DNA from: Gammaproteobacteria bacterium
GTDB lineage: Bacteria > Pseudomonadota > Gammaproteobacteria > Eutrophobiales > Eutrophobiaceae
Length of the DNA: 64,000 nt
Direction of reading: 5' to 3'
Assembly: GCA_026710545.1 (NCBI GenBank)
Contig: JAPOQU010000013.1
Span: 1-64,000, forward strand
Under the pieces are notes generated by a model. That model was not told the DNA's origin. It worked only from the letters and a program-made list of their open reading frames with translations, and did not search any database. Shown piece after piece: positions 23,813 to 42,704 of the stretch (position 1 is its first letter; each line of letters starts with the position of its first letter). A program made the translations under genes and the position numbers.

Positions 23813-24011
23813 ATTAGTTCCCCTGTGGAAATTATCTACGCAAAGGTGCCGAGTTTACAGGCTTTCGCCAGGCATGTCTTATAAAATATATATCCCGAAA
23901 ATATCACTGTGTCCTATGACCCGAGACTCACAGGGAAGGGTCTTGTTACAACAGGACTTGAGGCGGATTATCATTTATAATCGCTTATTTACTGGAAACT
24001 TGGAGAACTTC

Positions 24012-24641
24012 TTGGACGCATACTCATCAGAAACGCAACAGGTCGAGGAAATTAAGAAGTGGTGGCGTGAAAACGGCTTGTCCGTCGTGCTCGGCCTGAC
24101 ACTGGGTGTATCCGGCATTTTCGGCTGGCGTTACTGGCAGGACGTGAAAGTGGAACAGGCAGAAGCCGCTTCCGTTCTGTACTCCGACATGATCGCCGCC
24201 TTCGTGAACGATGACACGGCAGACGCCCGGGATAATGCCGACAGGATACTGGCGGATTACAGGAACACCACTTACGGTGTCTTCGCCATGCTGGGACTGG
24301 CCCGGCTGGCCGTAGCCGATGATGACCTGGACGCCGCCGAATCACACCTGCGCGAGGCGCTTGAACAGAACAGGGATGCCTCATTTTCTCACGTCATCCG
24401 CATGAGGCTGGTGCGCGTCCTGATCAGCCAGGACAGGCTGGATGAAGCAAGCAGCATGATAAACCGGCACGGAACAGGAGAGTTTGCTTCCGCCTATGAC
24501 GAGTTGATGGGAGATATCAGCGCCCTGCAGGGAGACTTCGAAGCCGCGCGCGCCGCATATCAGCAGTCCATCAACGGGGCGCTCGCCGCGGGACGGGATA
24601 TTTCCACCCTTGAACTCAAACTCAACAATATTGGACAATAG
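24012..24641 (+). CDS. yfgM: YfgM-type ancillary SecYEG/chaperone protein
   Basis: A TTG start at 24012 is preferred: GGAG lies six bases upstream and the resulting DAYSSETQQVEEIKKWWREN aligns with the E. coli YfgM N-terminus. It gives 209 residues. One transmembrane helix follows (about 20-40, GLSVVLGLTLGVSGIFGWRY), then periplasmic TPR-like repeats (AMLGLARLAVADDDLDAAESH and EASSMIN...GDISALQGDFEAAR). YfgM links the Sec translocon to periplasmic chaperones. bamB begins 48 bases downstream and der follows, the conserved gammaproteobacterial order. hisS, the usual upstream neighbour, is absent here; a TonB receptor lies there instead. Confidence 0.9.
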   Translation: MDAYSSETQQVEEIKKWWRENGLSVVLGLTLGVSGIFGWRYWQDVKVEQAEAASVLYSDMIAAFVNDDTADARDNADRILADYRNTTYGVFAMLGLARLAVADDDLDAAESHLREALEQNRDASFSHVIRMRLVRVLISQDRLDEASSMINRHGTGEFASAYDELMGDISALQGDFEAARAAYQQSINGALAAGRDISTLELKLNNIGQ

Positions 24642-24688
24642 CCGTCTCCGGTAGTTGGTTCTTGGTTGCTGGTTACTGGAAACTGAAC

Positions 24689-25900
24689 ATGCGATATATC
24701 ACCCTGCTCATACTTGCGGTAATCCTGTCAGGCTGCGCCGCGACGGAAAGAGTGACAAATTATTTCAAGGGGGGCAGCGACAACGCCGAACCTCCCAACC
24801 CCCTGGTCGAATTCAGGCCGCTTGTCAACGTTATCCAGCTCTGGAAAAAAAATAACGGTGTAGGTACGGATGAACAATACCTGAAGCTGGCGCCGGTCAT
24901 CGTCAATCAGCGCCTGTATATTGTCGATTCGGCCGGCAGCATCGGGGCAATGGATGCGACAAACGGCAAACGCTTATGGCAGAAAAAGATTGCCGCGTCT
25001 GAATCAATCGACGGTAAATCCGGCTGGTTACGGGGTGGCGATATCCATATAACGGGCGGCCCCGGCTACGGTGAGAATACGCTCATGGTCGGTTCCCTTG
25101 AGGGTGAAATCATATCCCTGTCCTCAGAAAACGGCAGTGAACTGTGGCGTACACGGGTTTCCAGTGAGGTGTTATCCGCTCCGCAACGGGACTCGGATAT
25201 CGTTATCGTCAGGACAATCGACGGCAAGGTATTCGGTATCGATGGCGACAAGGGAAGAAGACTGTGGATTTATGACCGGACGGTGCCGCCGCTGACTCTC
25301 AGGGGCACGAGCACGCCGGCAATAGACAGCGGCATCGTGGTGGCCGGATTCGACGGCGGAAAAATGGCCGCGCTGGATGTGCGCACCGGTAAACTGCTTT
25401 GGGAAACCAGCATATCCGCCGCCCGGGGACGCTCCGAACTCGAACGGATGGTCGATATCGATTCCGAACCCATGATAGTAGACGGCACTGTCTATATCGC
25501 CACGTTCCAGGGCCATGTAGCAGCGGTGCAACTGGAAACAGGCCGCATCCTGTGGAGCAGCGATCTCTCTTCCTATGCCGGTTTCAGCGCGGATGAACAA
25601 AACATCTATGTCAGTGACGAGGAAAGCCATGTGTGGGCGCTGGACAGGTTCAGCGGGTCGGTACTGTGGGAGCAGGATAACCTGCACGCCCGGGCGATCA
25701 CCGCGCCCGCCGCTATCGGCGATCAAATCGTCGTAGGCGACCTGGAAGGCTATTTACACTGGATCAGCAAAAAAACCGGTGAGTTCACCGCCCGGGAACG
25801 ACTGTGCAAGGACCCTGTCATTGCAAAACCTATTGTAGTCGGCAAGATAGCCTACGCATATTGCAGTGACGGCCGCCTGGCTGCCTATACCTACCGCTGA
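24689..25900 (+). CDS. bamB: Outer membrane assembly lipoprotein BamB
   Basis: The start at 24689 places a lipoprotein signal MRYITLLILAVILSGC with the lipidated Cys at residue 16; an in-frame ATG at 24662 would spoil it. The 403-residue protein is an eight-bladed PQQ-type beta-propeller with repeated motifs such as VDSAGSIGAMDATNGKRLWQ, LDVRTGKLLWETSI and VQLETGRILWSSDL. BamB binds BamA and aids folding of beta-barrel proteins in the outer membrane. It sits between yfgM and der as usual. A palindrome separates it from der. Confidence 0.95.
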   Translation: MRYITLLILAVILSGCAATERVTNYFKGGSDNAEPPNPLVEFRPLVNVIQLWKKNNGVGTDEQYLKLAPVIVNQRLYIVDSAGSIGAMDATNGKRLWQKKIAASESIDGKSGWLRGGDIHITGGPGYGENTLMVGSLEGEIISLSSENGSELWRTRVSSEVLSAPQRDSDIVIVRTIDGKVFGIDGDKGRRLWIYDRTVPPLTLRGTSTPAIDSGIVVAGFDGGKMAALDVRTGKLLWETSISAARGRSELERMVDIDSEPMIVDGTVYIATFQGHVAAVQLETGRILWSSDLSSYAGFSADEQNIYVSDEESHVWALDRFSGSVLWEQDNLHARAITAPAAIGDQIVVGDLEGYLHWISKKTGEFTARERLCKDPVIAKPIVVGKIAYAYCSDGRLAAYTYR

Positions 25901-25911
25901 ATACAATCGGA

Positions 25912-25943
25912 AATCAGGCATTACGAATTCGTAATGCCTGATT
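25912..25943. terminator. 32-base perfect palindrome between bamB and der
   Basis: AATCAGGCATTACGAA is followed directly by its reverse complement. It lies 11 bases after bamB and 15 before der, so a transcript hairpin could modulate read-through. No U-tract follows, and termination is uncertain. Confidence 0.5.
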
Positions 25944-25958
25944 CCAAATTGATCCCCC

Positions 25959-27359
25959 ATGACCCCTGTAATCGCCATTGTCGGTTGTCCCAACGTCGGG
26001 AAATCCACTTTGTTCAATCGCCTGACGCGTTCCCGTGCGGCGCTGGTAGCGGATGAACCGGGCGTGACCAGGGACAGGAAATACGGCTATGCCAACCTGC
26101 ACAATTCCGGCATGCTCGTGTGTGATACCGGCGGGATAGCCGGCAGTACCGAAGATCATCACCAGATAGTGGAATCGGTCAGCGGGCAGACCATGCAGGC
26201 CATGGAGGAGGCAGATGCGGTCTTATGGCTGGTAGACGGCCGTTCGGGGTTGACGGCCGGCGATATTGAACTGGCCGCAATCATGAGGAAACTGGCGAAA
26301 CCGGTGTTACTGGTGGTAAACAAGATCGACGGGATAGGCCGGGAGACCGCAATGTCCGAGTTCCATTCCATGGGCGGGTTTGCCGCGCCCATACCGGTTT
26401 CGGCACAAGCCGGGGACGGCATCAGCGAATTGCTCGATGCAATCGCTGCATCATTACCGCAAGCCAGCGCGTCGCCGCCAGAAAACGCCGGTGCCGTCAA
26501 AATTTCCGTTATCGGCCGTCCCAACGTCGGCAAGTCGACCCTGATTAACAGGGTCATCGGGGAAAACAGGGTGCTGACCTCCGACCTGCCGGGAACCACC
26601 CGCGACAGCATAACGATCCCGTTCCGGCGCCGGCAGAACGATTACTTGCTGATAGATACGGCCGGCATTCGAAGACGCCCCAAGGTAACCGGCAAAATAG
26701 AAAAGTTCAGCGTCATAAAAAGCCTGAAGGCCATTGAAGAATGCAACGTTGTCATATTGGTGCTGGACGCCCGCGATGTCATTTCCGACCAGGACCAGAC
26801 CCTGCTCGGAATAATCAGCCAGTCGGGGAAATCCCTGATTATCGCGGTCAACAAGTGGGATGGCCTGAGCGCCTACCAGAAAGCGACCATTGAGCGGCAA
26901 CTCGACAGGAAGACCGGTTTTATCGACTACGCCGTTACCCGGTACATATCAGCATTGCACGGGACGGGCATAGGGAAACTGTTCGACAGCGTAGATAAAA
27001 TTATCCGCTCACGGCAGCAGGATCTCAACTCGTCAACCGTAACCGGTATGCTGCAGGAAGCGCTGGCGGCAAATCCTCCACCCCTGGTAAGGGGGCGGCG
27101 CATCAAGCTCAAGTATGCCCACCTGGGAGGAAACGACCCGGTCCGCATCATCATCCACGGAAACCAGACCAGGGATATCCCGGCAAATTACCAGCGTTAT
27201 TTAGCCAATCATTTCCGCAAAAGAATGAAGTTGACGGGAACGCCTGTCTTCATCGAGTTCAAGCACGGCGATAATCCATACAAATCGTTGCGCAACACCC
27301 TGACCAAACGTCAAATCCGCAAACGCAGGCGCTTGATCAAACACTCCCGGAAAAACTGA
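25959..27359 (+). CDS. der: Ribosome biogenesis GTPase Der (EngA)
   Basis: Der has two consecutive GTPase domains and a KH-like C-terminal domain and acts in 50S subunit maturation. The 466 residues fit. Domain 1 has GCPNVGKSTLFN (about 8-19), DEPGVTRD and VVNKIDG. Domain 2 has GRPNVGKSTLIN (about 187), DLPGTTRD, LIDTAGIRRR and AVNKWDG. The basic C-terminus ends KRQIRKRRRLIKHSRKN. It is the last gene of the yfgM-bamB-der block; the accessory island begins directly after its stop. Confidence 0.97.
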   Translation: MTPVIAIVGCPNVGKSTLFNRLTRSRAALVADEPGVTRDRKYGYANLHNSGMLVCDTGGIAGSTEDHHQIVESVSGQTMQAMEEADAVLWLVDGRSGLTAGDIELAAIMRKLAKPVLLVVNKIDGIGRETAMSEFHSMGGFAAPIPVSAQAGDGISELLDAIAASLPQASASPPENAGAVKISVIGRPNVGKSTLINRVIGENRVLTSDLPGTTRDSITIPFRRRQNDYLLIDTAGIRRRPKVTGKIEKFSVIKSLKAIEECNVVILVLDARDVISDQDQTLLGIISQSGKSLIIAVNKWDGLSAYQKATIERQLDRKTGFIDYAVTRYISALHGTGIGKLFDSVDKIIRSRQQDLNSSTVTGMLQEALAANPPPLVRGRRIKLKYAHLGGNDPVRIIIHGNQTRDIPANYQRYLANHFRKRMKLTGTPVFIEFKHGDNPYKSLRNTLTKRQIRKRRRLIKHSRKN

Positions 27360-27370
27360 GCTTGATTAAC

Positions 27371-27436
27371 CGGCATAGGTCAGTCCCTTGTGTTTCATCA
27401 GGTCCGGAATGAACTGACGCGCAGGCAAACAGCCCC
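27371..27436 (-). pseudogene. Remnant of an abiEi-type antitoxin gene
   Basis: Read on the minus strand, this segment encodes GCLPARQFIPDLMKHKGLTY followed by AG. The intact abiEi at 35175 encodes GCLPAHQFIPDLMEYKGLNY and then YAG (about residues 73-95). The DNA also matches 35699-35763 closely. Neither the start nor the rest of the gene is present. It lies 11 bases beyond the der stop, so it marks an older, lost AbiE locus or a partial duplication at the left edge of the island. Confidence 0.8.
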
Positions 27437-27445
27437 AAGGCGTTC

Positions 27446-27469
27446 GGGGACGGATTTAAATCCGTCCCC
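27446..27469. repeat. 24-bp perfect palindrome, GGGGACGGATTT family
   Basis: GGGGACGGATTT is followed directly by its reverse complement. It abuts the abiEi remnant. Same family as 144-167 and 9669-9742. The remainder of the gap 27470-27608 shows nothing recognisable. Confidence 0.8.
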
Positions 27470-27608
27470 TGGCGTACAAATGTCCCGGGACGAAGTCACT
27501 ATTATTATGGGCCTGCGCCGCCTGATAATCGTCCCGATTTTTTCATTGCCCGATTGAATTGAAAAAAGTGATATGCTTACAGGGCGCTGCATTCAAAGGA
27601 GTCTGACA

Positions 27609-27842
27609 ATGAGCAAAGAATTAATCGGCATAATTGGATTATTTATCAGCCTGGCCGTTGCAACCGCTTCCGTCATTGGCGTTGTACAGGCTGGCGCTTC
27701 GGAGTTGCGCGCGGATATGCGTATCATGCAATCACAAATAAGCGACTTGCAACAACGTATATCCAGGGTTGAGACCAAGCTAGATAGCGCATTCCCTGAT
27801 GCAACCGAAACAGCACAGGCAAGCAATATCAAGGTGCCGTGA
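27609..27842 (+). CDS. Small single-pass membrane protein with coiled coil
   Basis: The ATG at 27609 has AAAGGAG at a good distance and gives 77 residues; an ATG at 27573 lacks such a site. One transmembrane helix (about 4-26, LIGIIGLFISLAVATASVIG) precedes a heptad-like coiled coil (ADMRIMQSQISDLQQRISRV, about 35-60) and a polar tail. I do not recognise the family, though haemolysin XhlA-like and similar small proteins share this layout. It lies in the island 105 bases upstream of the TerB-domain gene. Whether it belongs to that system is unknown. Confidence 0.65.
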   Translation: MSKELIGIIGLFISLAVATASVIGVVQAGASELRADMRIMQSQISDLQQRISRVETKLDSAFPDATETAQASNIKVP

Positions 27843-27947
27843 ACTTGTTCACAAGCTGTACATAACCGCCTCGAGTGCGGCGTGGTGAATTGTACCAACT
27901 CATAGACCAGTTCTTGGTTGACTACCTGCGCGTGAACCAAGCAGTGT

Positions 27948-30818
27948 GTGGGTAAGGTATTGCCCATATCAATATTAGCGCCATTTCGAACTGTGTCAGA
28001 GAACCAATATCAACAAAACAGGACGCGTGCCGAGCAGGTAGCTACAGGCAAGTGGATATCTCCCGGACAAACCGTAAAAATTGCAAATTTTGGGATCAAA
28101 GGTGGTTATTTTTATTATGGGGGAGAACAATTAAAGGCTCGGGATAATTTATGGCACCGAAGCATCACCGATGATCCTGAAAGGGGTATAGGGTACGTAG
28201 AATGGCTGGCAAGCAGTCGGGATGACCCTGATTGTGACATAGGCTATGTTTTTCTGTATTTCTATGGGATTGAACGTAGGCTTCTTGTGGACAGAAAACA
28301 ATTGTCTCCTTTTGATCGGCAGGCTTTGATCGATGAAATATGGCGATTAAAAAGAATCTATGGTGGCGACAGTACTTTCAACCGAACTGCTACTAATCTT
28401 TTAGCCCATGTTTGGGTCATAATTCGTGAAAAGTTTCGAACAATACCAGCAAAGCCTGATGAATCATTGCTGACTGGGACACGAGAATTTACCTCTGCAT
28501 TCAAGTATTTGTTGGGCAAGGCAGTGGCTGGTGGCACTCCTGTTTCAAGTGAACTTGCCCTAGCATGGGTTAGAAGTCATCCGAAGATTATCGATTTTCT
28601 TGATCCTGCTATGCTTTATAATAAAGGGTTCAGATCATCGTTTGAACTTCGCTATCAGGGAAAATACGGACAAGGCATTACTATTTGGCCCGATAGCACA
28701 AAATTGCAATTGGTGTATCATCCTGCAAGCCCTACTCTCGGTTGCCATATTATCAAGTTAGATATTCTTGACCCCAATCCTGGTCGCTTAACACGCCCAT
28801 TTATAAAGCTGGTACAACTCGCAGAATTATGTGTGGGTCACAGGTTAAATTCTGTCCCCAAAGTTACAAAGAAGAACATTAGAAAGTCTGCCAAGTGGAT
28901 TTATCCTGGTCAAATTGTGAAGATTGGGAATATTAAAATCAAAGGTGGATATTTTTATTTTGGGAAGAGCATTGATAATACCGAAGCTTCACTGATAGAT
29001 ACTGATTTACAGGTCGACGAATCATCTTCTGAATATAGACTGAGGTTAAACAAATTTTGGCCTCGATATCGTGATATGTCTCCTCGAAATCGTGGCGCTT
29101 ATTTGCGCTGGCTCGCAAGCAACCGTGATGATCCAGACTGTTACATGGGCTATGTATTTCTGTATTTCTACGGCATCGAATACAGGCTTCTTGTTGATGG
29201 AAAGCATATATCTTCTGTGGAGCGAGGTGTATTAATCGAAGAAATATGGCGGTTAAAGCGAATATATGGTGACAAGAGTTCTTTCAATAATGTAACAAAC
29301 TTTTTCGATTTCCTTCGAATCATTGAAGCACAGTCCGATAAATCATTGCTAGCCGGCACACGACAATTCACCAAGGAATTCAAGTATTTATTGGGCAAAG
29401 CAGTGGCCGAAGGTGCTCCCGTTTCAAGTGAGCTTGCTCTGGCTTGGGTTAGAAGCCATCCTGATTTTAGTCTCAGGTCTCCTACCAGACGTTACACAAA
29501 AAAGTTCGACTTGTTGTTTAAACTGCGGTATGAGGAAAAATATGGGCCTGGGATCATCCTTCAACCAAACAAAACTAAATTACGTTTGGACTATTATCCT
29601 GCAAGCACTACTCTTCGACGTTATCGGAGTATTACGTTAGATCTTCCTGATCCCAGCCGTTTAAAGGCCCCAGTTAAAACACTGATGCACATCGTAACGT
29701 TGTGCACTGATGAGTTGGATGCTTATTATGAGCAGGCCAAGTTTAGAAACCTGAAATCCTGGCTTCGCTCCAAGACGACAAATTCTTTTGGTATCGTTCA
29801 AACAGAAGATCTTTCATCAAAAGTTTGGGGAAACAGTCCTATAAAGATAAACAAAAAAGAAGCAGAAACGTTAGCAAACCTTGTTGAAAAAGCCGGTTTT
29901 GGATTAGCGCCTGATATACGGTTCCACCACGCTAAACCAGAAATCAGCGGACGTGTTGTTATATTCGAAAATGGACATGGCCCGGATTTCACTCCTGGTG
30001 ATGAGTTTAACCATCTTAGAACGATTCTGCGGCTGGGAGCCATGATTGCAACCGCAGACGGTCGAGTTGATAAAACGGAAATATCTGTAGTTGACAGGTT
30101 AATTTCAGATAACTCTGATCTTTCAGAAACCGAAAAGAAATCCTTACATGCTTATTTACATTGGCGTCTCAAAACGAGACCTGATATGAGTGGCCTTAAG
30201 AACCAATTACAGAACTTAAATTATCGTCAAAAGTCAGCAATTGGTCACATTCTTGTAGGTGTCGCTCTTGCAGACGGAAAAATCGAACCAATGGAAATTA
30301 AACAACTCCGCAAATTATATACTTTGCTGGGACTTGATGATGCGCTGGTTCCCAGTGATATTCATAATCTGAAATCAAGGAAAATCAAATCTTCACCCTA
30401 TGGCAGTCAGACACAAACGAAGGTAAACAATCTATCAAGCCCTGCAACTTCGCTTAATCCCGTACTGCTTGATGTATGTAAAGAAGAAACCGAAGGCGTT
30501 AAGGCTGTTCTTGACTCAATCTTTGTGGAAGAGAATATCAAGGATGAAAACGAGAATATGAGGGGCGATGTTGTCGCAACTCCACAAATAACAGGGCTTG
30601 ATGATGCTCACACACGCTTCTACGAGAAGTTAATTTGCAAGGATAAATGGTCATCAGAAGAAGTTGAAGATATATGTAAAGAATTAAATCTAATGGTTTA
30701 TGGCGCGATTGAAGTCATCAATGAGTGGGCATTTAATAATGTTAATGCTCCTCTGATAGAAGACGAGGGCGTTATCAATATTGACCTTGCGGTTGCACAA
30801 GAAATACGAGCGCTTTAA
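27948..30818 (+). CDS. sngA: TerB-domain protein of a Shango-type defence operon, with duplicated TerB_N module
   Basis: The 956-residue protein has two tandem copies of a TerB N-terminal-type module. Copy 1 spans about 34-300 (GKWISPGQTVKI, GYVFLYFYGIERRLLVD, LALAWVRSHP). Copy 2 spans about 313-595 with the same motifs, GYVFLYFYGIEYRLLVD and LALAWVRSHP. A TerB-like helical domain follows (about 685-810, MIATADGRVDKTE and GVALADGKIEPMEIKQL), then a TerB-C-like tail. Only 18 bases separate it from an ATPase gene, which overlaps a helicase gene. TerB-type protein, ATPase and helicase together match Shango, a described anti-phage system. The GTG at 27948 is the first in-frame start; a GTG at 27993 is an alternative. 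Confidence 0.8.
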   Translation: MGKVLPISILAPFRTVSENQYQQNRTRAEQVATGKWISPGQTVKIANFGIKGGYFYYGGEQLKARDNLWHRSITDDPERGIGYVEWLASSRDDPDCDIGYVFLYFYGIERRLLVDRKQLSPFDRQALIDEIWRLKRIYGGDSTFNRTATNLLAHVWVIIREKFRTIPAKPDESLLTGTREFTSAFKYLLGKAVAGGTPVSSELALAWVRSHPKIIDFLDPAMLYNKGFRSSFELRYQGKYGQGITIWPDSTKLQLVYHPASPTLGCHIIKLDILDPNPGRLTRPFIKLVQLAELCVGHRLNSVPKVTKKNIRKSAKWIYPGQIVKIGNIKIKGGYFYFGKSIDNTEASLIDTDLQVDESSSEYRLRLNKFWPRYRDMSPRNRGAYLRWLASNRDDPDCYMGYVFLYFYGIEYRLLVDGKHISSVERGVLIEEIWRLKRIYGDKSSFNNVTNFFDFLRIIEAQSDKSLLAGTRQFTKEFKYLLGKAVAEGAPVSSELALAWVRSHPDFSLRSPTRRYTKKFDLLFKLRYEEKYGPGIILQPNKTKLRLDYYPASTTLRRYRSITLDLPDPSRLKAPVKTLMHIVTLCTDELDAYYEQAKFRNLKSWLRSKTTNSFGIVQTEDLSSKVWGNSPIKINKKEAETLANLVEKAGFGLAPDIRFHHAKPEISGRVVIFENGHGPDFTPGDEFNHLRTILRLGAMIATADGRVDKTEISVVDRLISDNSDLSETEKKSLHAYLHWRLKTRPDMSGLKNQLQNLNYRQKSAIGHILVGVALADGKIEPMEIKQLRKLYTLLGLDDALVPSDIHNLKSRKIKSSPYGSQTQTKVNNLSSPATSLNPVLLDVCKEETEGVKAVLDSIFVEENIKDENENMRGDVVATPQITGLDDAHTRFYEKLICKDKWSSEEVEDICKELNLMVYGAIEVINEWAFNNVNAPLIEDEGVINIDLAVAQEIRAL
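28841..28857. repeat. Half-palindrome remnant at the internal duplication joint of the TerB gene
   Basis: CAGGTTAAATTCTGTCCCC resembles the right half of the GGGGACAGATTT palindrome family. It lies exactly between the two TerB_N copies and encodes the atypical linker HRLNSVPKVTKK. It may mark where the duplication arose. The resemblance is partial, so this is suggestive only. Confidence 0.4.
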
Positions 30819-30836
30819 CTACGAGGAGAGTTATCT

Positions 30837-32144
30837 GTGGCGAAGGACAAAATTCGACCAAAAGAACGTGATTCAATCATCCGGTCACTGAAATCAGGCG
30901 TTACACCCAAAGTGGGTATTCGGCACATCCAGGTAGGACGCGTGAATGAAATAAAATCACTATACAAAGATATTGAAAGAGTGGTTTCCGGAGGCGCTGT
31001 TTTCAGGCTTATCATCGGTGAATACGGTTCCGGCAAAACATTCTTTCTCAGTGTGGTGAAGTCTATCGCGTTGGAAATGAAAATGGTAACGGTGAGTGCC
31101 GACCTCTCCCCTGATAGACGCCTACATGCTTCGGGCGGTCAGGCAAGACATTTATATTCTGAACTTATGCGGAATCTTGCCACCCGAAATAAACCGGAGG
31201 GTAACGCTATCAACAGCGTTGTGGAGCGCTTTATCACACTGGCAAGGCAAGAGGCTGACAACCATGACAAAACAGTAGTATCAGTTATCAATGAGCGTTT
31301 AAGTCAATTGACCGAGCTTGTTGGCGGTTATGATTTTGCCAAGGTTATAGAAGCATACTGGGATGGCTTTGAATCCGGTAATGACATTCTGAAAGCACAT
31401 GCCATTCGCTGGCTGCGTGCGGAATATACCACAAAGACAGATGCAAGGAGGGATCTGAATGTTAGAACAATTATCTCCGATAATTCATTTTACGATTCGC
31501 TGAAATTACTCAGTCTGTTTGTTCGGCAGGCGGGTTATGCAGGGCTTCTGGTGAACCTGGATGAGATGGTCAATCTTTACAAGCTTAATAATACGCGAGC
31601 CAGAGTATCAAATTATGAGCAAATAATGCGTATATTAAATGATTGTTTACAGGGGACAGCTGAATATATTGGTTTCCTGATGGGGGGCACACCTGAATTT
31701 CTTCTGGACACTCGTAAAGGTCTCTATAGCTATGAAGCCTTGCAGTCAAGATTAGCTGAAAACCCCTTTGCACAAAAAGCGGGCGTGATTGATTACTCCT
31801 CGCCGGCCTTACATCTGGCAAATCTGACCCCCGAGGAACTATATTTACTGCTTGGTAACTTAAGGCATGTGTTCGCTTCTGGTGAGCAAAACAACTATCT
31901 GGTACCGGATAAAGCGCTAAAGTCATTTTTAAATCATTGCAGCCAAAAAATTGGCGATGCCTACTTCAGAACGCCTCGAAATACAATTAAAGCTTTTGTC
32001 GATATGCTTGCCGTACTTGAGCAAAACCCTGGTATCAATTGGCATGATCTTGTTGAGAAGATAGACATTGAAGAGGACAAAGTGAGCGATATGCCGGAGG
32101 TGGAGACAATGAGAGAGGATGAACTGGCAAGTTTCACAATTTAG
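30837..32144 (+). CDS. sngB: BrxD-like (DUF2791) P-loop ATPase of the Shango-type operon
   Basis: The 435-residue ATPase starts at a GTG (30837) preceded by GAGGAGAG. Walker A is GEYGSGKTFFL (about 61-71), and the Walker B-like strand is GLLVNLDEMVNLYKL near 240. AEYIGFLMGGTPEFLLD and ENPFAQKAGVIDYSSP are typical of the BrxC/BrxD-related family seen in type 2 BREX. No other BREX gene is here. Its end overlaps the helicase gene by 26 bases. In Shango the ATPase is the second of three genes, as seen here. The mechanism is not settled; it is likely to couple ATP hydrolysis to the TerB protein and the helicase. Confidence 0.85.
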   Translation: MAKDKIRPKERDSIIRSLKSGVTPKVGIRHIQVGRVNEIKSLYKDIERVVSGGAVFRLIIGEYGSGKTFFLSVVKSIALEMKMVTVSADLSPDRRLHASGGQARHLYSELMRNLATRNKPEGNAINSVVERFITLARQEADNHDKTVVSVINERLSQLTELVGGYDFAKVIEAYWDGFESGNDILKAHAIRWLRAEYTTKTDARRDLNVRTIISDNSFYDSLKLLSLFVRQAGYAGLLVNLDEMVNLYKLNNTRARVSNYEQIMRILNDCLQGTAEYIGFLMGGTPEFLLDTRKGLYSYEALQSRLAENPFAQKAGVIDYSSPALHLANLTPEELYLLLGNLRHVFASGEQNNYLVPDKALKSFLNHCSQKIGDAYFRTPRNTIKAFVDMLAVLEQNPGINWHDLVEKIDIEEDKVSDMPEVETMREDELASFTI

Positions 32145-34359
32145 TGAAAGCAACGACTTTGCTCGGCTCGACCCCAGAATTCAAAAATGGGTCTATAAAC
32201 AAGGATGGCAAGACCTGAGGGATATCCAGAAAAAATCCATAACTCCAATTCTCGCTGGCAATACTGACGTTGTCATCAGCGCCTCTACTGCGGCGGGAAA
32301 AACCGAGGCCGCTTTTTTACCTGCCTGCAGTTTAGCGGCGGACAAAAAGGAAGGATTCGGTATCCTGTACATCAGCCCGTTAAAGGCGCTGATTAATGAT
32401 CAGTACCGTAGGCTGGTAAGCCTTTGTGATGACCTTGATATGGCCGTTACGGCCTGGCATGGAGACAGTTCTCAAGCCAGAAAAAAATATGCAAAACAGA
32501 ATCCTGAGGGAATATTATTAATTACGCCGGAGTCTCTTGAGTCTCTGTTGATGCGGGAACCCGGTTGGGTCAGGTCGGCCTTTGAAACAATACAAGGCAT
32601 CATCATTGATGAATACCATGCGTTTGTCGGATTTGAACGCGGTTGTCATTTACAGTCGCTGATGCACCGATTAGAACACCTCATAGATAGACATACACAA
32701 CCGATACCAAGAATCGCACTCAGTGCAACACTGGGTGACATGGATAGCGTTCAAAGCTATTTGAGGCCATCAAAACTCATTCCTTGCCAGTTGATACAGG
32801 ATAAGCAAGCCCGGAACACATTAAAAATACAAGTGCGCGGTTATTTAAATAAGCCTCCTCCAAAAACCCATAATCCTGATGGAATCACCAGCCAACCTTC
32901 AAGCGCTGATGAAAAAATAGCGGATGATTTATTCGGGACTCTTCGCGGCGAATCCCACCTCATTTTTGCAAATAGCAGGAGGAGAACTGAACACTTTGCA
33001 GTGTCACTGAGCGACCTCTGCGAACGGCATCATGTGCCTAATGAATTTTTTCCTCATCACGGGTCATTGTCTAAAGAATTGCGTTTTGAACTGGAAGGTC
33101 GTCTTCATAAAGAAAACTTGCCTACCACAGCAGTTTGTACCATGACCCTTGAACTTGGAATCGATATTGGAAAGGTCAAGTCAATTGCGCAAGTGACTGC
33201 TCCTCACTCCGTTGCCAGTTTAAGACAACGGCTTGGCAGGTCGGGCAGAAGAGGAGAGCCGGCAATTCTAAGAATATATATATCAGAAGACGAGTTGAAT
33301 GTTAATTCCAGTTTGGGGGACAAGCTCAGATTAGAACTGTTGCAAAGTATAGCCATGCTCCGTCTATTAGTGAGTGAAAAATGGTATGAGCCGCCTGATA
33401 TACACTTGTATCATTTTTCGACATTGCTTCATCAAATCCTGGCCATCATTGCACAATGGGGTGGGGTAAGGCCCGATCAGGTCTGGGGGCTTTTATGTAA
33501 AAGTGGCCCTTTCAGGCGGACTACAGTTGATCACTTCAAGACGTTGCTTTCATACATGGGACAAACAGATTTCATTGTTCAGCTTAATAGTGGAGAACTG
33601 GTCTTGGGCAAAACAGGTGAACGCCTTGTAAACCACTATAGTTTTTATTCCGTTTTTAAAACCCCTGACGAATATCGAATTGTTGTTGAGGGAAAAACAT
33701 TGGGTACACTCCCCATAGATTCCATGATATTACCCGACCAGCATATTGTTTTTGGTGGTCGCCGCTGGAAGGTCAAAGATGTCGACAGCGAGAAGAAGAC
33801 AATCTCTGTTACGCCCGCAAAAGGAGGGGAACCGCCCAGGTTTGGAGGGGGCGGTATGGGAATTCATGACCGGATCAGGCAGGAAATGTACGAAATATAC
33901 CGGTCTGGCGACCATAGAATCAGTGTTGGAGATGTTAAATTGGAGTTTATGGATGAGATAGGTCAGAACCTATTCCGTGAGGGTCTTGAATACTTCAGAG
34001 ATATTAATCTTGAATTTGACCGCATCGTCCAACTTGGAAGTGATGTTTTCATTGTTCCATGGATGGGAGATAAGCTAGCAAATACGTTGGTTGCGATGCT
34101 GAAGTCCTCTGGATATGAGGCTAGTGCTTTCGCAGGGATAATTGAAATCAATAACGCAAACAAATCTGAAATTGGCGAATGTCTAAAATCTATAATCTCC
34201 TCACCAATACCTGAAAATACTGAACTAGCCAAAGCGGTAAAAAACAAACACACGGAAAAATTTGATCATCTACTACCGGAACAACTATTGAATACAGCTT
34301 ATGGCGCAAAGGCTTTTGATACGGAAAAGACTGTCTTATGGCTGTCACGGATTTTGTGA
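32119..34359 (+). CDS. sngC: Lhr/BrxHI-like superfamily 2 DEAD-type helicase of the Shango-type operon
   Basis: The 746-residue helicase starts inside the 3' end of the ATPase gene. Motif I is SASTAAGKTEAAF (about 52-64), motif II is IIIDEYHAFV (DEYH, about 157), and motif III is ALSATLGD. The second RecA domain has HHGSLSKELR, LELGIDIGKV and motif VI QRLGRSGRRGEPA, as in Lhr-type helicases. A C-terminal region of about 350 residues follows without motifs I could name. Lhr-like helicases partner BrxD in type 2 BREX and form the third component in Shango. The operon ends here, 27 bases before the convergent abiEii. Confidence 0.88.
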   Translation: MNWQVSQFSESNDFARLDPRIQKWVYKQGWQDLRDIQKKSITPILAGNTDVVISASTAAGKTEAAFLPACSLAADKKEGFGILYISPLKALINDQYRRLVSLCDDLDMAVTAWHGDSSQARKKYAKQNPEGILLITPESLESLLMREPGWVRSAFETIQGIIIDEYHAFVGFERGCHLQSLMHRLEHLIDRHTQPIPRIALSATLGDMDSVQSYLRPSKLIPCQLIQDKQARNTLKIQVRGYLNKPPPKTHNPDGITSQPSSADEKIADDLFGTLRGESHLIFANSRRRTEHFAVSLSDLCERHHVPNEFFPHHGSLSKELRFELEGRLHKENLPTTAVCTMTLELGIDIGKVKSIAQVTAPHSVASLRQRLGRSGRRGEPAILRIYISEDELNVNSSLGDKLRLELLQSIAMLRLLVSEKWYEPPDIHLYHFSTLLHQILAIIAQWGGVRPDQVWGLLCKSGPFRRTTVDHFKTLLSYMGQTDFIVQLNSGELVLGKTGERLVNHYSFYSVFKTPDEYRIVVEGKTLGTLPIDSMILPDQHIVFGGRRWKVKDVDSEKKTISVTPAKGGEPPRFGGGGMGIHDRIRQEMYEIYRSGDHRISVGDVKLEFMDEIGQNLFREGLEYFRDINLEFDRIVQLGSDVFIVPWMGDKLANTLVAMLKSSGYEASAFAGIIEINNANKSEIGECLKSIISSPIPENTELAKAVKNKHTEKFDHLLPEQLLNTAYGAKAFDTEKTVLWLSRIL

Positions 34360-34386
34360 AAGTTTGTTTCTAAGAGATGAAGTTAC

Positions 34387-35178
34387 TCATTCTGACAGCA
34401 GAGAGATCAACGCGTTCCGGACCTTTTCCGCCATCATGTCCGGTTCCCACGTGTAGCCCGGGGCAAGAAGGGGTCCGATATCGCTTGTAAAATTTTCATC
34501 TCGCAGCTTGTCGGTAATGTTGTCCTCGAACTGCTTTCTCGAGACTGTATGGCCTCCGTGGTCCATGTACTCGTAGAAGATATTGACTATCTTTTCGGGG
34601 CTAACCTTCCCACTATCCAGTGCAATAGCGAGATCAAAGAGATCACGTCCCTTCTTTCGCTGATACAGAGCGCGGAGCTTCGTGCCCAGCAGTTCGTTAA
34701 GCTCGTAGCTCTGGATTGAACACGATCCTTCGTACCACCGAGAGCGTAGTTCGAAAGGTATCTCTCTGAAGCCTTCCACAGCGAAGTGTTCGCGTGTATT
34801 GATTTCGACTTTTAGCCGAAGGGGTAATTGCGGAGAGCCTTCGGACTCAAATCGGTAGTTGAAGGTGATGCGGGACTGGGTTTGTTTGTAATTCGGTTTA
34901 CCCAACCACGGATTCAGAACCTCATTCAGTGCGGCCATGACCGGTCCCGCCGGTTCAGCGTTCACCTGAACGAGATCAATATCTTCAGAATACCTTGCCG
35001 GTGGCAGGTGGAGTTTAAACAGAGCCGTACCGCCTCGGAAAGCAAGCGCGTTGTGTAATACTTCATTCGAGAATATCTCTACGAGCGCGCGGCTGATGAC
35101 GAGGTCCTGCTCGACCTGTGCGTCATCTACCCACGGCGCTTGGTCCCGCCACTCTGTGATGTAGTCTTGAGGGATCAT
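34387..35178 (-). CDS. abiEii: AbiEii nucleotidyltransferase toxin
   Basis: The 263-residue protein belongs to the AbiEii/DUF1814 family of nucleotidyltransferase-like toxins. The signature is FRGGTALFKLH followed by PPARYSEDIDLVQV, with the paired acidic residues DxD of the catalytic site. ELLGTKLRALYQRKKGRDLFD is the family's second conserved block. Its ATG overlaps the stop of abiEi as ATGA. AbiE systems cause abortive infection and act as type IV toxin-antitoxin pairs. Related toxins modify tRNA ends; that activity is assumed by family. The gene is convergent with the Shango-type operon, forming one defence island. Confidence 0.93.
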   Translation of the reverse strand: MIPQDYITEWRDQAPWVDDAQVEQDLVISRALVEIFSNEVLHNALAFRGGTALFKLHLPPARYSEDIDLVQVNAEPAGPVMAALNEVLNPWLGKPNYKQTQSRITFNYRFESEGSPQLPLRLKVEINTREHFAVEGFREIPFELRSRWYEGSCSIQSYELNELLGTKLRALYQRKKGRDLFDLAIALDSGKVSPEKIVNIFYEYMDHGGHTVSRKQFEDNITDKLRDENFTSDIGPLLAPGYTWEPDMMAEKVRNALISLLSE

Positions 35179-35978
35179 ATGTCAGGCTCCAGTTCCGTAT
35201 TCACAATCAGCTTCCAGTCGGAAGCGCGGTGGCTGTCTGCACCCTCATGCCCCGGCGCCAACATAGTATATCCGCGAGCGTGTTCGTGAACGTAGGTCCG
35301 TATATTCTCTGCGACGGCGACCTGCTCGACCAGCTCCAGGATGTAACCGAGCCGCTGGACCCAGGTGACAGGCGCCGTTACCGCAACTGTTACTAATGCT
35401 GCCGGGTCGATCTCGCTGGCGAGTTCAGACAGGATTGTCGCAACCTGGTCCAGCCCACCGACATGTTCCGGGTAACCTGCAAGGTCAAGCGCCGTTGCTT
35501 CCGGTGTCGAAACGCGAAGTTCGCCCCGCTCTGTATTGAACAAGCGCACCGATATTTCCTCAATCTTATTTCTGGCGATGAATTTGACCCGCACTTTGCC
35601 GCAACGAATCGGTCTGCGGTTTCTCGCCAGGAAGACCTGGAATTCCTGCGGACGCTGGTGAGCCGCCCCGTAGTATTGCGCGGCGGTCAGCAGGCCCGCG
35701 TAATAGTTCAGTCCCTTGTACTCCATCAGGTCCGGAATGAACTGATGCGCAGGTAGACAGCCCAGGGAGCGGTATTCCGGTGGGATGATGACATAGAATC
35801 CGCGGAAGGGAGATGCAACCTGCCCCTGTTTGCCGAGCCGATTCAAGGCCAGCTTGCAGGCATCGGGTGAGACCTTCAGTGCTGCCCGCGCCTCTTCCGA
35901 GGTGAAGCTGTAATGCCCCTTCGATGCCAGCTGCGTGATGAGATCTTTGGCTGTAATGCGTTCAGAGTTCAATTTCAC
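35175..35978 (-). CDS. abiEi: AbiEi antitoxin / transcriptional repressor
   Basis: The 267-residue protein has an N-terminal winged helix (about 8-60, KGHYSFTSEEARAALKVSPD then LNRLGKQGQV) and a C-terminal antitoxin domain. Conserved blocks are RGFYVIIPPEYRSLGCLPA and HQFIPDLMEYKGLNYYAGLL, and a later STPEATALDLAGYPEHVGGLD. AbiEi proteins bind the promoter and repress the operon. Just upstream, AAGTATCAAAAAATGATAC is an inverted repeat that could be the operator (35985-36003). A decayed partial copy lies at 27371. Confidence 0.92.
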   Translation of the reverse strand: MKLNSERITAKDLITQLASKGHYSFTSEEARAALKVSPDACKLALNRLGKQGQVASPFRGFYVIIPPEYRSLGCLPAHQFIPDLMEYKGLNYYAGLLTAAQYYGAAHQRPQEFQVFLARNRRPIRCGKVRVKFIARNKIEEISVRLFNTERGELRVSTPEATALDLAGYPEHVGGLDQVATILSELASEIDPAALVTVAVTAPVTWVQRLGYILELVEQVAVAENIRTYVHEHARGYTMLAPGHEGADSHRASDWKLIVNTELEPDI

Positions 35979-35984
35979 TTTCTA

Positions 35985-36003
35985 AAAGTATCAAAAAATG
36001 ATA
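35985..36003. promoter_or_regulatory. Candidate AbiEi operator
   Basis: AAGTATCAAAAAATGATACA contains the dyad GTATCA/TGATAC with a six-base AT spacer, beginning six bases upstream of the abiEi start. AbiEi-type antitoxins repress their own promoters through inverted repeats. This is inference from position and symmetry. Confidence 0.4.
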
Positions 36004-36077
36004 CATTTTGCAAGTGAAATCGTTAAAAAACCAGAGCCATGGAACTCATTATTGAGTTCTCTTAAATTGAAACGGTA

Positions 36078-37145
36078 TTAATTTACCGGATAACGGTCGC
36101 GGATTAACGTCAGTATGCGGGCAGCGTCATCCGTTGCTTCCCATTCATCATCTTCATTAACCACGATCAGTTCGGTTTTGTTGCCCACCCCTGTCAGGCT
36201 GATCTGGTACGAAGCCTGCGCCGCTTCCCCGTCTTTCCAGAAGGCCAGTTTGGAGAAAAAGCCTTTCTTCTTATCGCGCATTTCGGCAGCGGTCACCTGG
36301 TAAAACCCCTTTGCCGCATCCCCGCCGGTTACCTGCAGCCCGCTGTTGCGCAAGGCGACCCCGGTATTTTTCCAGGCCTGTTCAAAGGCTTCCGGAATGG
36401 TCAGGTACATTTTACCCTCGCCGGCGTCAACCACCCGAACCTCCCGGCCCGAACCGGTGCGGGAGGCAGCGCCGGCAACCTCATTAGAGGCTACTGCAGG
36501 CGCGGGCGCGGGTTCGGCGACAGGTTTGCCGGCGTCAATGAACAGGCTGAGATCTGCAACCAGTTGCCGCTCCAGTCTCGCATCCTTGTCATGGTCAAGC
36601 CAGTCTGCGTTCTCATCAATCCGGGTCTGGCGCTGCTGGCTGATGATCAGCATGGTAACGTCCTGGCTATCGCCTTGTTCGGCAAAAATCTTGTATTTAT
36701 GACGATATTGCAAGCCGGTTTGCTCAGCTGCCTCGGACCAGCCTGTTTCCAGCACTCCCAGTTCCTCATCTTCCAGTTCGATGGGATAGTTTTTTGTCTC
36801 GAAAAATTCGAGCAGCGCCGGCCAGGCCAGGTATAACGGCATGGACAGGGATAACCATTGCTCGTCAGTATCCGTTGTCCCCATGGGCGCCTCTGTGCTC
36901 GCCGGTCCACGCGGGTTCCTGTATCTGGATAACGTAGCAGGCGCCTCGTTGGGAATATTCATGGAATCATTGATAGCATCCGCAGTCAGGTCGGGGGGGA
37001 TCTCCAGATCCGGCATGCTTTCACTTTTCTTGTATTCGGTTTTCTTATCAGGCAGTAGTTTCCCGACATCAGGCATATAAGCACAGGACGTCACGAAGCA
37101 TAAGCCGCTCACACCCAACACGAAATTTAAAATCGTTTTTTTCAT
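36078..37145 (-). CDS. bamC: Outer membrane assembly lipoprotein BamC
   Basis: The 355-residue lipoprotein has a type II signal with lipobox VTSC and lipidated Cys at residue 21. The unstructured N-terminal segment that binds BamD follows (YMPDVGKLLPDKKTEYKKS then MPDLEIPPDLT), with the family's PDLxxPPDL motif. Two helix-grip domains follow (about 100-205 and 245-355). A proline/alanine linker (about 208-222, KPVAEPAPAPAVAS) separates them. It begins 3 bases after the dapA stop, the conserved dapA-bamC order. The defence island ends just beyond its stop. Confidence 0.93.
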   Translation of the reverse strand: MKKTILNFVLGVSGLCFVTSCAYMPDVGKLLPDKKTEYKKSESMPDLEIPPDLTADAINDSMNIPNEAPATLSRYRNPRGPASTEAPMGTTDTDEQWLSLSMPLYLAWPALLEFFETKNYPIELEDEELGVLETGWSEAAEQTGLQYRHKYKIFAEQGDSQDVTMLIISQQRQTRIDENADWLDHDKDARLERQLVADLSLFIDAGKPVAEPAPAPAVASNEVAGAASRTGSGREVRVVDAGEGKMYLTIPEAFEQAWKNTGVALRNSGLQVTGGDAAKGFYQVTAAEMRDKKKGFFSKLAFWKDGEAAQASYQISLTGVGNKTELIVVNEDDEWEATDDAARILTLIRDRYPVN

Positions 37146-37148
37146 AAA

Positions 37149-38036
37149 TCACAATACCTCGGCTTGTTTCATTGCGGCTTCAACTTGCGGACAAAATTCT
37201 TCGGACAGCCAGGTCATAGGCAAACGGATGCCGTCTTCAATAAGACCCATGCGCGCGACAGCCCACTTGGCCGGAATCGGGTTCGACTCCAGGAACAGGG
37301 ACTGGTGCAATCCCAGCAGTTTTGCATCAAGCGCCTTCGCTGCCTCCCGCTGACCGGTGCGCGCCAGCCTGGTCAATTCATGCATGGCAGCCGGTGCGAC
37401 ATTGGCGGTCACGGAAATAACGCCGTCACCCCCCATAAGCATAAAATCACAAGCTGTTTCATCATCGCCGCTCAACAGCAAAAAATCATCACCGCAATCT
37501 TCCCGGATTGCCCTGACACGCGTCAAGTCGCCTGTCGCTTCCTTGACGCCGACGATATTATCAAGCTGTGCCAATGCGGATACGGTGCCGGGCAACATGT
37601 CGCAGGCAGTACGCCCGGGTACGTTGTACAGAATCTGCGGGATAGCCACGCGTTCGGCGACAACTTTGAAATGCTCATACAAACCCGCCTGGGTCGGTTT
37701 ATTGTAATACGGGGTTACCAGCAGGCAGGCATCGGCCCCTGCCTCCCTGGCGCAGTCCGTCAATTCAATGGCTTCAATAGTCGAATTTGCGCCCGTTCCG
37801 GCGATGACGGGGACGCGCTTGTTGACTATTTGCACAACCCGCCTGATGACCTCACAGTGCTCCGCCGTCATCAGGGTAGCGGATTCGCCGGTGGTGCCGA
37901 CGGCTACGATACCGTCAGACTTGTTCTCGATATGGTATTCAAGCACCCTCTCCAGTCCTTCCAGGTCTACCTGCGTATCCGGCCCGGCCCCGCTCTTCAT
38001 GGGGGTGACAACGGCAACAAGGCTACCTGTAAACAT
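37149..38036 (-). CDS. dapA: 4-hydroxy-tetrahydrodipicolinate synthase
   Basis: DapA condenses pyruvate with aspartate semialdehyde in lysine and diaminopimelate synthesis. The ATG at 38036 (MFTGSLVAVVTPM) gives 295 residues and aligns with the E. coli start. A TTG at 38054 would add six residues. Marks are VAVGTTGESATL, the Tyr in ILYNVPGRTACD and the Schiff-base Lys in IVGVKEATGDLTR. bamC follows by 3 bases; gcvR is divergent 238 bases away. No leader, riboswitch or attenuator was recognised in that 238-base gap. Confidence 0.96.
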   Translation of the reverse strand: MFTGSLVAVVTPMKSGAGPDTQVDLEGLERVLEYHIENKSDGIVAVGTTGESATLMTAEHCEVIRRVVQIVNKRVPVIAGTGANSTIEAIELTDCAREAGADACLLVTPYYNKPTQAGLYEHFKVVAERVAIPQILYNVPGRTACDMLPGTVSALAQLDNIVGVKEATGDLTRVRAIREDCGDDFLLLSGDDETACDFMLMGGDGVISVTANVAPAAMHELTRLARTGQREAAKALDAKLLGLHQSLFLESNPIPAKWAVARMGLIEDGIRLPMTWLSEEFCPQVEAAMKQAEVL

Positions 38037-38274
38037 ATCGCTCGTATTCTGCAAGGTGAAAACAAATCCGATGTATCAAATGCACACCTGTCGTTCCCCT
38101 GCTGGCACAACGTCACATATTGCGTATAATGAGGGGAAGTAAGTCCATTGTAGTATAATAAAACGAGTATGGTACTTGTCCGACCCGCTAAAGACAAGAT
38201 AATCAGGAAACTGTTTATTACGCGGGATCCGTTTTAAACACCGGCTTTTTGGACCCCTCACCCGGACCACATTA

Positions 38275-38802
38275 ATGATACAGTTTCTTGCCCTCACCGT
38301 TATCGGCAAACACGATCCCGCCCTGTCCGAACGGCTGACCGGCGCCATATCGGAATGCGGCTGCAATATCCGGGAAAGCCGGATAACCATCCTGGGCCAG
38401 GAATTTTCCATGCTGTTGCTCCTCTCCGGAAACTGGAATGCCGTTGTAAAGGTTGAAGATGCCCTGAACAGGCTGGGAAAAGAGCTGGATTTATCGATCA
38501 ACATGCGCCGGACCGAATTAAACAAGTCGCAAAAAAACCTGATGCCGTACGCCATAGACGTCGTATGCAGCGACCGTATCGGCGTGGTAAACCGCATCAC
38601 CCGCTTTATCCTGGATAACGGCATTCAAATCCGGGACTTGTACACAACCACTTACGAGGCATCTCACACCGGTACCGAGATGTTTTCCCTGCACCTGACC
38701 ATCCACGTCCCGGTGGAAATTTCCATTTCGTCGCTGCGCAACGACTTCCTGGAATTCTGCGACCAGTTGAACCTGGATGCGATCATCGAACCGGTAAAAT
38801 AA
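38275..38802 (+). CDS. gcvR: GcvR-like double-ACT regulatory protein
   Basis: The 175-residue protein consists of two ACT domains, about 3-80 (LALTVIGKHDPALSERLTGA) and about 90-165 (DVVCSDRIGVVNRITRFILD). In E. coli GcvR antagonises GcvA and represses the glycine cleavage operon when glycine is low. Here it lies between dapA and bcp, the usual gammaproteobacterial position. The ATG at 38275 has no strong ribosome site (ACCACATTA). No gcv gene is in the window, so the role rests on family and position. Confidence 0.88.
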   Translation: MIQFLALTVIGKHDPALSERLTGAISECGCNIRESRITILGQEFSMLLLLSGNWNAVVKVEDALNRLGKELDLSINMRRTELNKSQKNLMPYAIDVVCSDRIGVVNRITRFILDNGIQIRDLYTTTYEASHTGTEMFSLHLTIHVPVEISISSLRNDFLEFCDQLNLDAIIEPVK

Positions 38803-38848
38803 GGATATTTACTCTGACCCCAAATCTCACAACCCTGGATATCACTGA

Positions 38849-39316
38849 ATGACTACTGTAAACACGGGCGCCACGGTGCCGGACTTTGAGTTGCCGGCTA
38901 CGGGTGACAAAACCATCAAATTAACCGACCTGAAGGGAAACAACGTGGTCCTGTACTTCTACCCCAAAGACAGCACGCCGGGTTGCACCCTGGAAGGTCA
39001 GGACTTCCGCGACAATATCGAAGAATTCAACTCGCGCGGGACGATCATCCTCGGCGTTTCCAGGGACAGTATAAAATCCCATGAAAAATTCAAAACAAAC
39101 CAGTCGTTCCCTTTCGATCTGCTGTCCGACCGGGATGAACTGCTATGCAGGCTGTTCGACGTCATCAAGGAAAAAAACATGTACGGCAAAAAGGTGATGG
39201 GGATCGAACGCAGCACGTTCCTGATTGACGCGTCCGGCACGCTGCGCAGGGAGTGGCGCAAGGTCAAGGTAAAAGGCCACGTGAACGAAGTACTGGAGGC
39301 GGTTAAAACTCTCTGA
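38849..39316 (+). CDS. bcp: Thiol peroxidase, Bcp/PrxQ type
   Basis: The 155-residue peroxiredoxin reduces H2O2 and organic peroxides. The peroxidatic cysteine is C46 in DSTPGCTLEGQDFRD. The resolving cysteine that E. coli Bcp has five residues later is absent (Q51 stands there), so this is a 1-Cys or atypical member that needs an external thiol partner. GVSRDSIKSHEKF and the C-terminal FLIDASGTLRREWRKVK are family typical. A TGACCCC half-repeat lies just before the start (38813-38827), 46 bases after gcvR. Confidence 0.93.
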   Translation: MTTVNTGATVPDFELPATGDKTIKLTDLKGNNVVLYFYPKDSTPGCTLEGQDFRDNIEEFNSRGTIILGVSRDSIKSHEKFKTNQSFPFDLLSDRDELLCRLFDVIKEKNMYGKKVMGIERSTFLIDASGTLRREWRKVKVKGHVNEVLEAVKTL

Positions 39317-39354
39317 CGGCCGGAGCCGCCCCCGTTATCCGCCGGAACGGCGCG

Positions 39355-39439
39355 GATATTTGGGGTCAGAGCAAAAATAATCACCCGTGAAAAACACCGG
39401 TTTGTCTTCAGAATAATTTTTGCTCTGACCCCAAATATC
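39355..39439. terminator. 24-bp perfect stem hairpin between bcp and perM
   Basis: GATATTTGGGGTCAGAGCAA plus AAAT pairs exactly with its complement at 39416-39439, around a loop of about 37 bases. It separates two convergent genes and ends inside the last two bases of the perM stop. The TGACCCC core links it to the hairpins at 4115 and 11117. Single half copies stand at 38813 and 40588. A bidirectional terminator role is plausible. Confidence 0.6.
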
Positions 39440-40511: not shown

Positions 40512-40737
40512 GTGTTTACCTAGTCACCGGCCAATCGCAGATATTTGATCTGAGTGTTACCGGCTTATTTTGTGTATTTTTACACTGACCCCAAATATCC
40601 GGTAACCATCAACGTCTGCATGATAACGTCAAACAAGGTAATAGACCAGACGGGTATGGCTGTTTTATGTATGATGTTTTTCCGACCTGAGACAATTCGC
40701 TGCTGATGCACAATCCTCTCCCCCGCCCGATCCGACC

Positions 40738-42703: not shown

Positions 42704-42704
42704 C

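Follow-up and report, generated by a model that had tools for sequence, protein, structure and literature searches.

Two questions are raised by the three-gene operon in the window (the whole stretch of 64,000 nucleotides analysed here, from contig JAPOQU010000013.1 of a Gammaproteobacteria bacterium): does it belong to the Shango defence system, and is the repeated module in its first protein the normal form of that protein or a departure from it? The initial annotation had described tightly packed genes for a TerB protein, a BrxD-like ATPase and a helicase and had assigned them to Shango, and both the ORFs and their Pfam domains were found as claimed (Table 1). A gap of 18 nt separates the first two genes, and the second and third share 26 nt; protein 1 contains TerB_N in two stretches followed by TerB and TerB_C, all above the gathering cut-offs, protein 2 contains BrxC_BrxD, and protein 3 contains DEAD and Helicase_C. 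When PADLOC was run on the three proteins, each was best matched by its own Shango model: SngA for protein 1 (E 5.9e-95), SngB for protein 2 (E 7.5e-178, versus 2.9e-43 for BrxD) and SngC for protein 3 (E 1.4e-270, 898 bits, versus 7.7e-114, 379 bits, for BrxHI). The HMMs, checked for an assignment outside Shango, thus place all three genes inside it, and the locus has a SngA, an adjoining SngB ATPase and a SngC helicase beside SngB. What it does not have is a SngA of the usual form, with a single TerB_N, an N-terminal transmembrane segment and a hinge of 68-78 residues, a form that we define from the present survey and not from a published criterion. As judged from the sequence, the locus is a real Shango system with a new SngA architecture, and sngABC is an intact chromosomal operon.

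Table 1. Features of the Shango operon and its immediate neighbours (positions in the window).
Feature	Position	Strand	Description
77-aa ORF	27609..27842	+	upstream of sngA; by eye, N-terminus hydrophobic and followed by a heptad-like stretch
sngA	27948..30818	+	956 aa, GTG start; TerB_N-TerB_N-TerB-TerB_C; without transmembrane segment
TerB_N copy A	28044..28832	+	residues 33-295; conserved loop region eroded
TerB_N copy B	28887..29705	+	residues 314-586; nearer family consensus
Shortened hinge, copy B to TerB	29715..29855	+	residues 590-636; YSRxLGR...LLP segment missing
TerB domain of SngA	30030..30344	+	residues 695-799; Pfam PF05099, E 1.9e-13
TerB_C domain of SngA	30411..30806	+	residues 822-953; Pfam PF15615, E 1e-21; winged-helix-like end
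sngB	30837..32144	+	435 aa, GTG start; BrxC/BrxD-type ATPase
sngC	32119..34359	+	746 aa; SF2 helicase
abiEii + abiEi	34387..35978	-	type IV toxin-antitoxin pair; PADLOC AbiEii 2.1e-110, AbiEi 5.2e-94

The claim of two diverged modules of about 270 residues in protein 1 was confirmed. Across 285 aligned columns, copies A and B share 142 identical residues (50%; 243 bits, E 5e-84). Their local score is 628, whereas 500 shuffles of one copy averaged 34.6 (sd 5.2) and reached 57 at most, so the likeness is far beyond chance. At the DNA level they share 69% identity over 578 columns; with divergence of this order in both protein and DNA, an assembly echo of a single copy is very unlikely. A tree was built from 31 TerB_N modules, 29 of them drawn from the 84 other modules (the nearest in score and some deep ones). 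In it A and B were sisters with support of 100/97, indicating that the duplication arose in the lineage of this SngA, and a column occupied by Cys in 51 of 52 homologues is Tyr in both copies. By this phylogeny, SngA carries a lineage-specific tandem duplication of TerB_N.

We then evaluated whether a double TerB_N might be the normal state of SngA. An alignment-based scan with one genome per species yielded at least 332 confirmed loci, of which the best 80 were taken, and a scan of viral contigs added 16 loci. A TerB_N model scan of these loci, together with those from the SngA model searches given below, gave 108 distinct ORFs other than the window's, from 107 loci, two of the ORFs being pieces of one broken gene (L096). 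A TerB/TerB_C tail was present in the same ORF in 97 of the 108, and 90 had this tail, were complete at the 5' end and covered at least 200 model positions; the other 18 were cut by contig ends, came from broken or partial genes, or were TerB_N ORFs without the tail. None carried a second copy (0/108; 0/90 among the complete ORFs). In one locus (L117) two partial TerB_N matches were found, which overlap by only 30 model positions and were read as one interrupted domain. We therefore reject the possibility that two TerB_N domains are the normal form of SngA, since none of the 108 other ORFs covers the model twice; among the 109 TerB_N ORFs that include that of the window, the doubled form is rare (1/109). 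The relatives are themselves Shango, with a SngB homologue in 78 and a SngC homologue in 75 of the 80 genome loci (L012-L091, fetched DNA), and two homologue alignments, with 52 and 50 other rows, were built. As a separate observation, nine of the viral contigs (L099-L107, two of them repeats) carry TerB_N ORFs without a TerB/TerB_C tail, and homologues of SngB and SngC are absent from their fetched DNA.

Searches with the SngA model gave matches in 9 of 369 genomes at the level of the class, in 2 of 53 at that of the order and in 13 of 398 at that of the phylum; these counts include the window's own genome each time, and a few of the other matches are weak. Of the 40 nearest genomes, none but that of the window had a match to the SngA protein. 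Three weak matches were discarded, two (G177 and G327) that cover only the TerB region of the model and one (G001) in which rescanning found neither TerB_N nor the tail. For plasmids, 677 records matched; each matching place in the 60 inspected at even steps through the list spans at most 942 nt, equal to one domain, as two overlapping pieces in 59 records and a single piece in one. Phage records gave no match. In the open-access literature, among the matches listed and as far as titles and the starts of abstracts tell, we found no report of a SngA duplication, and the initial annotation, too, was not aware of one; the text consulted in the papers cited here mentions neither a SngA duplication nor a SngA membrane anchor.

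The duplication is not the only departure in this protein: the initial annotation was right about the two modules and overlooked that an anchor is absent and a hinge is short. A transmembrane-like segment before TerB_N, scored within 150 residues of that domain, was present in 60 of 84 relatives at a hydropathy of at least 1.6 (L004-L097); six more scored 1.38-1.48, 16 scored lower and two were cut by contig ends, so that 60 to 66 of the 84 have the segment. Repeats had been left out of this set (L005/L012, L006/L020 and L093/L094 are identical; L089/L090 differ at 2 of 827 residues). In five of the 16 low scorers (L014, L036, L050, L072 and L085), the ORF contains a hydrophobic stretch at a greater distance upstream, which could be genuine or the product of an ORF call that is too long. 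The window SngA has an N-terminal hydropathy of 1.01 and no transmembrane segment, and no such segment was found on reading any frame of 27843-28060. The hinge between copy B and TerB (L590-K636) has 47 residues, versus 68-78 in 52 homologues, and the segment that it lacks contains an Arg and a Pro conserved in 99-100% of the 84 relatives. Nineteen of these 84 escaped a regular expression written for the hinge; on reading, 18 of them have YSR- or FSR...LP and L097 has YAR...LP. In the AF2 model, a single continuous helix (573-609) spans the hinge gap.

The reading that we put first, tentatively and at somewhat less than an even chance, is that sngABC carries a lineage-specific TerB_N duplication in which copy A serves as a built-in partner of copy B and replaces the role of the anchor and hinge. 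SngB, the BrxD-like ATPase, would load the SngC helicase on invading DNA or drive it there, while infection would be sensed by SngA, which would gate the SngB-SngC pair; both steps are proposed by analogy with what has been suggested for BrxD and BrxHI (PMC12839542). Copy A would probably be a covalent pseudo-dimer partner for copy B, as we infer from this one case, and would take over the positioning or oligomerising role of the anchor and hinge in an ordinary SngA, with the complex working as a soluble unit and not a membrane-tethered one. Such a pseudo-dimer assumes that TerB_N is a pairing domain, and the extra TerB_N and the missing anchor and hinge are, in the sequence of a single protein, a correlation only. 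Loss of the anchor needs no duplication, because the 16 low-scoring relatives have a single TerB_N.

At 50 columns the residue is conserved across at least 90% of the 84 relatives; copy B keeps 41 of these and copy A 35, and fewer than 41 are kept in only two relatives, L051 (35) and L097 (39). In the loop region 346-395 (B numbering), copy A keeps 5 of 12 conserved positions against 11 in copy B and has a 21-residue gap relative to B. In the GYVFLYFYGIER region (residues 396-420, B numbering), copy A keeps all 13 conserved positions and copy B 11. In GxERR, the first Arg after the Glu is retained by copy A and is Tyr in B, whereas the WPxY positions and R515 are retained by copy B and lost from A. 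Modelled alone by AF2 on 52 rows, copy A reached a pLDDT of 87.6 and a pTM of 0.87; confidence was low in its eroded loop and C-terminal end. In the full-length model, the pLDDT of copy B is mostly above 85; copy A has low confidence there, as no homologue row covers it, and the A-B interface is not readable. Copy A is thus, by alignment and model, a complete domain from which part of a conserved loop is missing, and it keeps the predicted fold and hydrophobic core. Comparison of the module A fold with the PDB gave no clear match (Foldseek best E 2.0; VIA-align among 269 chains, best Z 5.2, rmsd 4.7, 91 aligned), nor did comparison with viral models (best E 1.7), results that say nothing firm on fold novelty. 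A sequence search of the PDB with SngA returned only TerB-type chains and weak matches, none of them over TerB_N.

The TerB domain of SngA resembles a tellurite resistance protein (2ou3_A; Z 9.6, rmsd 5.0, 138 aligned). The end of TerB_C (SngA residues 878-956, 30579-30815) resembles winged-helix domains, with high-ranking structural matches to an NSE1-MAGE-G1 chain (Z 7.9, rmsd 3.3, 67 aligned), JetABC (Z 6.5, rmsd 2.4, 66 aligned) and MukBEF (Z 6.4, rmsd 3.2, 68 aligned); the range of these matches can be explained by a common arrangement.

The initial annotation had proposed that the second TerB_N widens recognition, the two diverged copies offering two binding faces for more phages or triggers. 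We regard this as unlikely, though far from negligible. The copies have diverged to half identity with a low pairwise dN/dS (0.24 over 260 codons, with third positions accounting for 142 of 297 differences), a ratio that the high dS of 1.59 makes rough and that does not separate the two copies, and each copy retains conserved residues that the other has lost, as the Arg of GxERR in A and WPxY and R515 in B. However, because its conserved loop is partly lost, copy A looks more like a scaffold than a second sensor.

A further possibility is that SngA is decaying, with anchor and hinge lost, copy A eroding and the operon no longer protective. The missing hinge and anchor, conserved in most relatives, and the column counts of both copies are consistent with such decay, as is the lack of an evident ribosome-binding site, by eye, before the GTG of sngA. 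Other features argue otherwise. SngA runs through 956 codons without a stop, and the low dN/dS between its copies also counts against decay. The Walker A motif of SngB is present (GEYGSGKT at residue 61); a simple Walker B pattern gave no match, and LLVNLDEM reads as one by eye. SngC has ASTAAGKT, DEYH, SAT, GIDI and QRLGRSGR. In rate trees built with 19 relatives, root-to-tip distances relative to the mean of the 11 relatives compared were 0.95 for SngB, 0.74 for SngC and 0.75 for the SngA tail, all ordinary. TerB_N copy B stood at 1.26, a point against the built-in-partner reading; an acceleration affecting the whole operon, which we had considered, was not seen. On balance, these features suggest that the operon is not a wreck, and we consider decay unlikely.

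The operon lies between der (EngA-type GTPase, 25959-27359) and bamC (NlpB/DapX lipoprotein, 36078-37145), both named by Pfam. The matched stretches of these genes are 2-105 bp apart in seven of ten relatives, 1970 bp apart in G003 and on separate contigs in G005 and G008. Since der and bamC nearly adjoin in most relatives, the approximately 8.7 kb between them in the window (27360-36077), which holds the 77-aa ORF, sngABC and an AbiEi/AbiEii pair, is an insert; the GC content is 0.415-0.463 in 2-kb steps across 27-35 kb and about 0.55 around it. The abiEii/abiEi genes are convergent with sngC and are a neighbour, not part of Shango. In the insert of G003 (L138), two genes have HEC-01A (3.3e-113) and HEC-01B (1.1e-61) as their best PADLOC models and form a candidate defence pair; the right edge of this insert resembles, by eye, the region upstream of abiEi in the window. 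The der-bamC site, nearly empty in seven of the ten relatives but occupied by Shango and AbiE in the window and by a HEC-01-type pair in G003, looks like a small defence hotspot in the genus. A GGGGACGGATTTAAATCCGTCCCC palindrome, which may be a dispersed repeat, lies just after der (27446-27469), and the near-empty sites of G002 and G006 (L136 and L140) contain similar palindromes. Rfam found only a tRNA in the window, and scans of 27300-36200 for promoters and terminators gave fewer hits than in shuffles. Outside the insert, an ORF at 41789-42721 on the minus strand (310 aa) matches the N6_N4_Mtase DNA methylase family (E 1.9e-43).

The position of the 77-aa ORF allows another explanation of the missing anchor, namely that this small gene supplies a membrane anchor in trans, so that the system would still be tethered and the duplication would be unrelated to anchoring. 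The ORF has the same orientation as sngA and ends 105 nt before it, and by eye it has a hydrophobic N-terminus, a heptad-like tail and a good ribosome-binding site (AAAGGAG 7 nt before the ATG). However, a search of the fetched Shango loci with E allowed up to 1 found no relative of it, and its weak matches lie elsewhere in genomes of the same genus, which makes an anchor in trans quite improbable. No PADLOC family matched the ORF. The idea that it is a split-off N-terminus of SngA was rejected, as in-frame stops separate the two and 27843-28060 holds no frame with a transmembrane segment. Very improbable, finally, is an origin of copy A from another SngA by recombination instead of tandem duplication, for although the branch of A is long (0.70, versus 0.32 for B) and the survey of donors incomplete, A and B are well-supported sisters and share the Tyr at the Cys column.

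Returning to copy A as a built-in partner of copy B, we can ask how far it may be extended. It is possible, if doubtful, that the locus represents a Shango subtype in which SngA, once a membrane-anchored sensor dependent on pairing with itself, has become soluble and self-contained and an internal TerB_N pseudo-dimer makes anchor and hinge dispensable. The variant lacks two features common in SngA and has a second TerB_N instead, beside an ordinary ATPase and helicase; if the subtype reading is true, it would be a natural experiment on the roles of the anchor, the hinge and TerB_N. Should the variant protect, anchor and hinge would not be essential and TerB_N would be the place to seek pairing or sensing; should it not protect, anchor and hinge would become prime candidates.

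Among known systems, the closest is the Shango of Pseudomonas aeruginosa PA14, which has the same gene order of TerB protein, ATPase and helicase and, according to PMC10250203, lowers the plating of several phages and also protects liquid cultures; the mechanism of Shango is given as unknown in a 2026 review (PMC12926258). The difference lies in SngA: the relatives examined have one TerB_N, and the SngA of the window has two, with no N-terminal transmembrane segment and a short hinge. The BrxD-BrxHI pair of type 2 BREX is also similar, as SngB and SngC match these PADLOC models too, but less well, and SngB scores 141.1 bits against the NCBIfam equivalog cut-off of 350 bits for BrxD; on reading the ORFs of 22000-42000, no PglX, PglZ, BrxC or PglW was recognised. 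A role of BrxD in loading or activating BrxHI is suggested in PMC12839542, and PMC12278908 places SngC in a helicase clade with BrxHI, DruE and DpdJ. TerB itself is more widely shared: PF05099 is listed for Shango and Bunzi (PMC10952713) and Dionysus as a TerB system (PMC12926258). Bunzi and the other TerB defence proteins thus have TerB in common with this locus by listing, and it is the ATPase and helicase that mark it as Shango.
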